Origin: Candidatus Iainarchaeum sp.
Lineage (GTDB): Archaea > B1Sed10-29 > WALL01 > JAGHAM01
Assembly (NCBI GenBank): GCA_021161465.1
Contig: JAGHAM010000034.1
Coordinates: 1-6,844 of the forward strand
Direction: 5' to 3'
Length of the DNA stretch: 6,844 nt
Shown: positions 1,656-6,844 of the stretch, piece by piece
Numbering within the stretch: position 1 is the stretch's first letter
How the letters are laid out: every line of letters starts with the position of its first letter
The notes under the pieces: generated by a model
The model's input: only the letters and a program-made list of their open reading frames with translations
What the model was told of the DNA's origin: nothing
Database searches by the model: none
Position numbers and translations under genes: made by a program

Positions 1656-2279
1656 TTAACTTGCCTCAAAGTCTTCAATCTTTTCCTTAAAATCGCTCCT
1701 CTTTTTAATAATCCCATTTAACAGCTGGAGCTCTCTCGTGAGCAGCCAGTAAGCAAGAGCTAAAGCCTTTTTGCCCTTGTTGTTTAGCGGAACGCAAACG
1801 TCCACATCAGTTAGCAGGTTGTTAGTGTCACAAAGTGCGATAACAGGAATCCTGACTTTTCCGGCCTCGTTTATGGCTTGTTTGTCTACACCAGGGTCTG
1901 AAACTAACAAGACATCAGGTTCTACAAAATTTGGGCTTCTGGGGTTAGTCAGAGTGCCCGGTACGAACCTTTTGACAGAAACCATCGCACCAATGCTTGC
2001 AGCGAATTTCTTTGCAGGTTTTCTTGCGTAGACCCTACCAGCCACAACGAGTATTTTGCCAGGTTCATAGTTTGACAGGAAGTTGGCAGCTAGCTGGATA
2101 CGCTTGTCTATTGTTTGTATGTCCAGCACATGAAGGCCGTCCTGCCTTGTCTTGTATATGTATGGTTTCATGTCCCCAGTTTTGTACTGGGAACCTATGT
2201 GTATCCCTGCCTTTAGATATGTTTCTATAGGAACTAGCAAATTCTCCTCGTCTTCCTTCGTTTCCTTTGCTTTTACCAT
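1656..2279 (-). CDS. rpsB: 30S ribosomal protein uS2
   Basis: Archaeal S2, a small-subunit protein on the back of the 30S particle. The 207 residues include the family's YLKAGIHIGSQYKTGDMKPYIYKTR near residue 22, a QTIDKRI segment, and the RFVPGTLTNP, EPDVLLVSDP and IPVIALCDTNN stretches. The frame is open up to 2417, but the extra codons would be read through the tRNA-Pro gene and have no S2 similarity. I chose ATG at 2279 because AGGTGA lies 5 nt upstream (2290-2285) and the length then fits archaeal S2. Only about 20 nt separate the CCA end of tRNA-Pro from this start, so the ribosome binding site would sit near the 5' end of the message left after tRNase Z cleavage. rpoK and eno, which in many archaea lie between rpoN and rpsB, are absent here. 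Confidence 0.97.
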   Translation of the reverse strand: MVKAKETKEDEENLLVPIETYLKAGIHIGSQYKTGDMKPYIYKTRQDGLHVLDIQTIDKRIQLAANFLSNYEPGKILVVAGRVYARKPAKKFAASIGAMVSVKRFVPGTLTNPRSPNFVEPDVLLVSDPGVDKQAINEAGKVRIPVIALCDTNNLLTDVDVCVPLNNKGKKALALAYWLLTRELQLLNGIIKKRSDFKEKIEDFEAS

Positions 2280-2317
2280 CTTGGTCACCTGAATCATAAG
2301 TGGTGGGGCCGTCGAGA

Positions 2318-2373
2318 TTCTCATGCCGTGGCGGATTGCGTAACAATCCCCTACGGGGGTGTTGAAACCCCTA
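2318..2373 (-). other. tRNA-Pro intron 4, T loop 59/60, 56 nt
   Basis: The T stem TCGAG/CTCGA is the outer helix. TTCA of the T loop pairs with intron TGAG (2323-2320) as the 4-bp central helix, and both bulges read AAT, cut AA|T. Excision leaves the standard 7-nt loop TTCAAAT. Inside are two hairpins: GGGG/CCCC, and GGATTG-CAATCC (plus-strand 2333-2349). The latter resembles a hairpin at the same end of the tRNA-Ser intron. Confidence 0.85.
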
Positions 2374-2386
2374 TTTGAACTCGAGT

Positions 2387-2416
2387 TCCTGGGGGCTCTC
2401 TCTGTCGAAGAGACCA
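2387..2416 (-). other. tRNA-Pro intron 3, variable loop (~45/46), 30 nt
   Basis: A CTGG/CCAG central helix is flanked by 3-nt bulges TGT and GAA, with an inner hairpin GGTCTCT pairing to AGAGA(G)CC. Excision leaves a 4-nt variable loop, TGAC, between the anticodon stem and the T stem. Without excision the variable region would be 34 nt, far too long for a tRNA-Pro. The boundary could shift by one base to give a 5-nt loop. Confidence 0.75.
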
Positions 2417-2429
2417 CACCAGCACCCCA

Positions 2430-2456
2430 CTCCAGTTTTTGGGTTCTCCCAAAAAA
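2430..2456 (-). other. tRNA-Pro intron 2, anticodon loop 32/33, 27 nt
   Basis: The BHB is textbook: outer helix CCTC/GGGG, 4-bp central helix CCAG/CTGG, 3-nt bulges CTT and AGT, and an 8-bp inner hairpin TTTTTGGG/CCCAAAAA closed by an AGAA loop. Cutting each bulge after its second base leaves T32 joined to T33 and yields the loop TTGGGGT with anticodon GGG. The site is 32/33, not the canonical 37/38. The intron begins inside a T7 run (2457-2451). Confidence 0.85.
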
Positions 2457-2468
2457 AGCTGGGAGGAT

Positions 2469-2500
2469 TTTTTGTGATCCCGGCGTAGTGCGGGAACCAG
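2469..2500 (-). other. tRNA-Pro intron 1, D loop (~20/21), 32 nt
   Basis: Removing this segment restores GGGTAGCTTGGGATCCT, the length and sequence pattern of an archaeal Pro D arm. Inside is a hairpin, CCCG/CGGG extended by TGGT pairing with ATCA. A GGC bulge (2502-2500) and an A-rich bulge flank a short TTG/CAA helix, giving a relaxed rather than perfect BHB. Of the four Pro introns this has the weakest fold, but the exon consensus supports it. Confidence 0.7.
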
Positions 2501-2523
2501 CCCAAGCTACCCTACGGCCCCTT

Positions 2524-2712
2524 TTAGTATCCTTTTATGTCATCCACCACATTTACATGGCTTATGAGCATCCTTCTGCAACAGTACCTCTTCAATCCCA
2601 AATCATCTAATATTTTCTCTGGGTCTTCTCCTGCTTTGACTCTCTTATCAAAGTCTTCCCACAGGTTTCCTATCAACCTTCCACAGGTAAAACATCTTAC
2701 AGGTACTTCCAT
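2524..2712 (-). CDS. rpoN: RNA polymerase subunit N (Rpb10 homologue)
   Basis: Small zinc-binding subunit of archaeal RNA polymerase that bridges subunits D and B in the assembly platform. The 62 residues begin [11 protein letters not shown] and end in [19 protein letters not shown]; Cys7, Cys10, Cys44 and Cys45 form the family's CxxC...CC zinc site. The frame is open 13 codons further, to 2751, but I chose 2712: AGGTGA (2722-2717) lies 4 nt upstream, and homologues begin at this point. The rpsI stop codon TGA is itself part of that ribosome binding site, so the two genes are tightly coupled. The stop codon lies 2 nt before the tRNA-Pro 5' end, so RNase P cleavage would leave this message with almost no 3' untranslated region. 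Confidence 0.97.
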
Positions 2713-3777: not shown

Positions 3778-3814
3778 TTCTTCACCTGTTACTATAATAA
3801 TGCGGGGGACGAGA

Positions 3815-3863
3815 TTCTCAACCCACAGCCATCTGCAGGTTTAGAAAGGGTGCAACCCTTCTT
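3815..3863 (-). other. tRNA-Leu intron 2, T loop 59/60, 49 nt
   Basis: Outer helix is the T stem GCGAG/CTCGT. The central helix is TTCA with TGAG (3820-3817), the bulges AAA and AAT. Excision leaves TTCAAAT. It contains a hairpin around AAGGG-TTGCA-CCCTT and a second one closed by AACC/GGTT. Positions 3833-3862 are identical over 30 bp to two segments of the tRNA-Ser intron. Confidence 0.85.
3833..3862. repeat. 30-bp copy of the T-loop intron repeat (in tRNA-Leu)
   Basis: Identical to plus-strand 6701-6730 and 6779-6808 in the tRNA-Ser intron. The core is an inverted repeat, AAGGGTGCAACCCTT. Relative to the Ser copies, about 14 bp (GGTGCAACCAATCT) is missing between this segment and the exon junction; the loss is bounded by TCT on both sides, which fits deletion between short direct repeats. 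Confidence 0.95.
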
Positions 3864-3911
3864 TTTGAACTCGCGCAGGCACTAAGCCACAAGGCCCTCA
3901 ACCTTGCTCGT

Positions 3912-3940
3912 TTGGCCACACTATACGATAGGTATAGCTT
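3912..3940 (-). other. tRNA-Leu intron 1, D loop, 29 nt
   Basis: Excision joins GGTCAA to ACGAG, giving the usual Leu D-loop ending GGTCAAA followed by the D stem. The proposed fold has central helix GGTC/GGCC, AAA bulges on each side cut AA|A, and an inner hairpin CTATAC-CTATC-GTATAG. The outer D stem is separated by an internal loop, so this is a relaxed BHB. The hairpin's own loop is not a usable anticodon loop, because no T precedes a plausible triplet. Confidence 0.75.
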
Positions 3941-3979
3941 TTGACCGCTCCGACACCCCCGCACGTTTACATTCTGTTT

Positions 3980-6519: not shown

Positions 6520-6592
6520 TTTTCAGACCTGCTTTAAACAAAGAGCGCGGAGGGTGGGATTTTCCAACCCAAGCGGATTGCATAGCAATCCT

Positions 6593-6668
6593 TGCAGGTT
6601 TAGAGGTTCGTTCTCGACCATAGGTCCAGAACGTGTGCAACCCTTCTGGTGCATTTTGTGCACCCATT
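6593..6668. repeat. Degenerate third repeat copy interrupted by hairpins
   Basis: Two blocks of the 48-bp repeat are recognisable: TGCAGGTTTAGA (6593-6604) and GTGCAACCCTTCTGGTGCA (6635-6653). Between them lies an extra hairpin segment (6605-6634), and after them TTTTGTGCACC forms a second extra hairpin with the preceding GGTGCA. The repeat has been invaded or has expanded at its hairpin loops. Confidence 0.8.
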
Positions 6669-6697
6669 CTCCCTGCGTATCGGGTGGCCTTGTGCCA

Positions 6698-6745
6698 CCC
6701 CTGCAGGTTTAGAAAGGGTGCAACCCTTCTGGTGCAACCAATCTT
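6698..6745. repeat. 48-bp direct repeat, copy 2 (tRNA-Ser intron)
   Basis: Perfect copy of 6776-6823, separated from it by a 30-bp unrelated spacer (6746-6775) that itself holds a GGATG/CATCC hairpin. It is not preceded by TTCA, so it does not look like an independently spliced intron. Confidence 0.97.
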
Positions 6746-6775
6746 CCTACAATCGGGATACGGATGATATTCCAT

Positions 6776-6823
6776 CCCCTGCAGGTTTAGAAAGGGTGCA
6801 ACCCTTCTGGTGCAACCAATCTT
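6776..6823. repeat. 48-bp direct repeat, copy 1 (tRNA-Ser intron)
   Basis: Identical to 6698-6745 with a 78-bp period. On the minus strand it starts at the 5' splice junction. It holds two small hairpins with TTGCA loops, GGTTGCACC and AAGGGTTGCACCCTT, and ends in AAACCTGCAGGGG. Confidence 0.97.
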
Positions 6824-6844
6824 TTTGAACCCACGCGGGCTTGC

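Follow-up and report, generated by a model that had tools for sequence, protein, structure and literature searches.

A probable tRNA-Pro(GGG) gene with four BHB introns in a DPANN archaeon

The DNA analyzed here (the window, i.e. contig C34, 6844 bases of a draft genome of 976 kb in 40 contigs, estimated to be 93% complete) comes from an uncultured archaeon and carries on its minus strand, at 2521-2301, what is very likely a functional gene for tRNA-Pro(GGG), split by four archaeal introns with BHB splice motifs. This reading of the sequence draws support from orthologs that lack introns, from splice sites in common with relatives, and from covariation in the stems. BHB introns and multi-intron tRNA genes are already known, and four introns in one gene are a new extreme. 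The published archaeal maximum is three introns per tRNA gene (PMC4033280, PMC8450103, PMC4390854); with four separate introns, this gene exceeds that figure by one, in an archaeon that lies outside the groups noted for high counts. We found no literature report of an archaeal tRNA with four introns, although the intron-rich Asgard genomes, for which the accessible part of the report (PMC11291895) allows no comparison gene by gene, may hold more than three introns per gene. By S2 protein comparison, the closest named genomes are Diapherotrites and other DPANN MAGs.

The gene consists of five exons of 21, 12, 13, 13, and 17 nt, all on the minus strand: exon 1 (tRNA positions 1-20) at 2501-2521, exon 2 (positions 21-32) at 2457-2468, exon 3 (positions 33-45, with the anticodon GGG) at 2417-2429, exon 4 (positions 46-59) at 2374-2386, and exon 5 (positions 60-73 plus the encoded CCA) at 2301-2317. 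They are separated by introns of 32 nt at 20/21 (intron 1, 2469-2500), 27 nt at 32/33 (intron 2, 2430-2456), 30 nt at 45/46 (intron 3, 2387-2416), and 56 nt at 59/60 (intron 4, 2318-2373), matching the positions proposed by an earlier sequence-only reading and its total of 145 nt of intron sequence. In the raw unspliced window, ARAGORN called no tRNA and Rfam gave no tRNA match. The joined exons (76 nt, i.e. 73 plus the encoded CCA) were called as tRNA-Pro(GGG) by ARAGORN, in agreement with the clean 73-nt tRNA that the same reading had assembled. A purpose-written spliced aligner, which mapped about 60 tRNAs of relatives onto the genome as templates and made no use of the earlier coordinates, recovered all five exons, each to within two bases, and, as had been claimed, found no intron at the 37/38 site. 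Each exon is thus backed by the spliced ARAGORN call and the spliced alignment, and exon 1 also by orthologs.

The standard BHB has a 4-bp central helix and two 3-nt bulges, and on both sides the cut falls after the second bulged nucleotide. We tested its register by pairing exon positions -6 to -3 with intron positions -6 to -3 at seven shifts (-3 to +3), and the proposed cut sites gave the best BHB of the seven in all four introns. The three introns for which this motif had been proposed earlier have complete central helices (4/4 pairs): intron 2 (CCAG:CTGG), intron 3 (CTGG:CCAG), and intron 4 (TTCA:TGAG). Beyond these, intron 1 also fits a BHB of relaxed form, with 3/4 central pairs (CTTG:CAAA) and an inner hairpin (TGGT/ATCA). 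Introns 2 and 3 are near-perfect, the former having a 4-bp outer helix and an 8-bp inner hairpin. Introns 1 and 4 are relaxed: the outer helix of intron 1 is one pair, and intron 4 uses the T stem as its outer helix and has no adjacent inner helix. With shuffled introns, the central helices had p values of 0.09, 0.002, 0.007, and 0.013 for introns 1 to 4, respectively, and the joint test gave 0 of 20,000 shuffles, or 5e-5 if a freedom of +/-1 nt was permitted. Thermodynamic folding of the full precursor was only partly informative, as it formed the BHBs of introns 2 (central helix probability about 0.5) and 3 (0.80-0.83) and not those of introns 1 and 4, whose central helices were absent from the predicted minimum-energy folds; so was the mature tRNA cloverleaf.

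The weakest of the four BHBs is that of intron 1, whose central helix does not reach significance by itself. One might thus suppose that only three introns are true and that the 32-nt D-loop segment is retained or otherwise removed. We consider this very unlikely: the D loop is normal at this point in all orthologs, the inner hairpin lies in the right register (composite p of 0.003), and D-loop introns with 4/4 central helices are present in the Gln, Lys(UUU), and Ala tRNA genes of the same genome.

The tRNA-Pro(GGG) gene is uninterrupted in six relatives (G002, G005, G007, G009, G010, and G013); in seven others it contains a single intron, at 32/33 in G001 (the only other same-family genome among those compared), at 59/60 in G003, G006, G008, and G014, and, for G011 and G016, in the anticodon loop; none of these 13 has more than one. 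The tRNA-Pro genes of G012, G017, and G004 were set apart as isoacceptors because other anticodons were read, and they contain one intron (59/60), none, and one, respectively. The uninterrupted orthologs are up to 92% identical, and together with the single-intron orthologs they fix the exon boundaries independently of the sequence-only reading. Intron 2 and the G001 intron have the 32/33 splice site and the CCAG:CTGG helix in common, and the 59/60 site is common to the tRNA-Pro genes of G003, G006, G008, G012, and G014, each with 4/4 central pairs; at both sites the cut positions are identical and the intron interiors differ. The introns at 20/21 and 45/46 were found only here, in no ortholog. 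In an alignment of 16 tRNA-Pro sequences, intact or spliced, 99.4% of the cloverleaf cells are paired (40-56% for control slides), and 10 of the 20 cloverleaf pairs show changes on both sides; not one of 500 shuffles came as high. With spliced exons that form a cloverleaf, carry a proline anticodon, and match the orthologs, this is a real and probably functional gene.

Archaeal ribosomal and RNA polymerase genes flank the tRNA gene (rps2, rpoN, rps9, and rpoD were assigned by Pfam, the remaining neighbors named from sequence), with rpoN (2524-2712, minus strand) ending 2 nt before it and rps2 (1656-2282, minus strand) lying downstream. The order rpoN-tRNA-rps2 was observed directly in G001, G002, G005, and G007, and the tRNA gene adjoins rps2 in several further relatives. 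Because it starts 2 nt past the rpoN stop codon, co-transcription is likely.

The Rfam tRNA model detected 8 tRNAs in this genome versus 13-44 in ten relatives; interruption is therefore the rule here, which shows how standard tRNA finders come to list very few tRNAs in genomes of this type. Spliced assemblies, not each refined by hand, yielded about 23 tRNA genes with roughly 45 introns and no intron-free gene. This inventory comes from targeted searches and is incomplete; the loci are not a random sample because they were picked up by way of tRNA-model matches and intron repeats, and the genome-wide intron count is approximate because the assemblies of L015, L161, L008, L020, and L137 failed or gave a doubtful anticodon. 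Several of the tRNA genes carry three introns, and a tRNA-Lys(CTT) gene on C30, at about 89.0 kb, has four (D loop, 30/31, 37/38, and 59/60), with a spliced product that passes ARAGORN. The earlier view that four introns would be exceptional thus stands against the published maximum of three, but the proline gene is not unique within its own genome.

Two other proline tRNA genes were found, UGG on C35 and CGG on C20, both interrupted, which leaves the gene described here as the only one detected that reads CCC and CCU (36 of the 79 proline codons in the genes of the window). With four insertions adding 145 nt, it might instead be a decaying pseudogene in which the tRNA has been destroyed and another gene supplies the function, and in a genome that is 93% complete such a second copy could be missing. 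No second tRNA-Pro(GGG) was found in this genome; an intact one, with the present locus silent, is what the sequence-only reading had named as counting against it. The exons show no disabling change and the cloverleaf is fully paired, including a T-stem U-A pair where most relatives have C-G; every insertion sits in a BHB context, and other tRNA genes of the genome are interrupted likewise. We regard a pseudogene as highly improbable and a working, four-intron gene as the better reading.

Intron 4 differs from the others in its relation to the rest of the genome. Its module GGATTGNNNNNCAATCC (GGATTG-NNNNN-CAATCC; 2333-2349, minus strand) has 15 perfect copies genome-wide, itself included, versus 0-1 copies in each of 18 relatives and none in the control. 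Most copies reside at site 59/60 of other tRNA genes, within introns that in some cases are multi-unit arrays longer than 300 nt. Intron 4 is a copy of a lineage-specific intron family that has spread across the tRNA genes of this genome at their 59/60 sites, so that, as in Thermoproteales, similar intron sequences occur in different tRNA genes. By-eye inspection of the long 59/60 arrays revealed no clear internal splice register that would indicate separate splicing of units. A CRISPR repeat match at 2340-2369 was rejected, being weak (Rfam, E 0.36, below the cut-off) and corresponding to the hairpin region of intron 4. Introns 1-3 have no further match anywhere in the genome, and although repeat-rich introns break the assembly elsewhere, with contig ends lying in the same repeat array, an assembly artefact or chimera is scarcely credible given these unmatched introns, the BHB form at all junctions, and a gene order like that of relatives.

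From these observations we infer a route from transcription to splicing, its order, and the enzymes acting in it. The tRNA would be transcribed with the rps9-rpoN-rps2 operon and released from the transcript by the enzymes that normally process tRNA 5' and 3' ends; EndA would cleave both ends of each intron and RtcB would join the exons. Introns 2 and 3 could form their BHBs in the full precursor, and the relaxed introns 1 and 4 would probably need a partly folded tRNA. An RtcB ligase gene is present, as is one EndA gene (C16:15155-15415 and flanks, minus strand). This EndA has an N- and a C-terminal domain and a length of about 170 aa; it aligns to the M. jannaschii alpha4 EndA (1a79) from residue 3 to residue 169, interrupted by only one gap of one residue, and has neither a CSL/ASL loop insertion by the active site nor the two-subunit or three-unit architecture associated with broad specificity. 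Loop insertions have been tied to the cleavage of relaxed motifs, which the EndA type found here reportedly cuts inefficiently (review, PMC6379350). Either this EndA accepts more than others of its class do, or a second subunit that partners it is encoded in the missing 7%; exactly one such EndA gene was found in eight of ten same-order relatives and none in the other two, which argues against a missing partner. We tentatively suggest that an alpha4-like, one-gene EndA with no specificity loop may process a nearly fully interrupted tRNA set, including relaxed motifs and tandem 59/60 arrays of more than 300 nt built from a spreading unit. If true, this would break the accepted link of endonuclease architecture to intron diversity. 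The combination of an extreme intron load with a plain alpha4-like endonuclease offers a direct test of whether diverse tRNA introns require special endonuclease loops.

Similar systems are known from three groups. Thermoproteales also have several non-canonical BHB introns per tRNA gene, e.g. Pyrobaculum calidifontis tRNA-Glu(UUC) and P. islandicum tRNA-Pro(UGG), with related introns dispersed over different tRNA genes (PMC4390854); they have three introns and a two-subunit EndA, whereas here there are four introns in a DPANN archaeon with a single short EndA gene. ARMAN-1 and ARMAN-2 (Micrarchaeota) resemble the present case as small-genome archaea with multiple non-canonical introns, but the epsilon2 EndA of ARMAN-2 is a three-unit protein of about 395 aa with a specific loop (PMC4033280, PMC12397907), in contrast to the short, alpha4-like enzyme found here, which has no loop insertion. 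In the Asgard lineages Atabeyarchaeia and Freyarchaeia, described in 2024, 92-95% of tRNA genes are interrupted and more than half have multiple, often non-canonical introns, according to the accessible part of the report (PMC11291895); the likeness lies in the mostly interrupted tRNA genes with multiple non-canonical introns. They belong to a different phylum, and repeat-array introns are not mentioned in that part of the report.

Several further tRNA genes contain repeats of this kind. The 59/60 intron of a tRNA-Gly gene in the locus C40:1247-4260 measures 318 nt and comprises about four tandem units; in each, a hairpin precedes a stem that has CCTGC and GTAGG/GCAGG at its borders. In a relative of another family, the 141-nt 59/60 intron of the G012 tRNA-Pro gene holds GAGGCTGCGCCCCCTCTACCCCTGCAG, which resembles the repeat unit of the window's genome. 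The window itself contains a second interrupted tRNA gene at 3801-3963 (minus strand), located between rpl18e and rpoD; going by the anticodon loop, it is a tRNA-Leu(GAG). One of its introns lies in the D loop and another, bearing the repeat unit AGAAGGGTTGCACCCTTTCTAAACCTGC, at 59/60. The 3' part of another tRNA, probably tRNA-Ser, lies at 6544-6844 (minus strand), and its 59/60 intron is a multi-unit repeat array in which contig C34 ends; contigs C20 and C25 begin in near-identical arrays.
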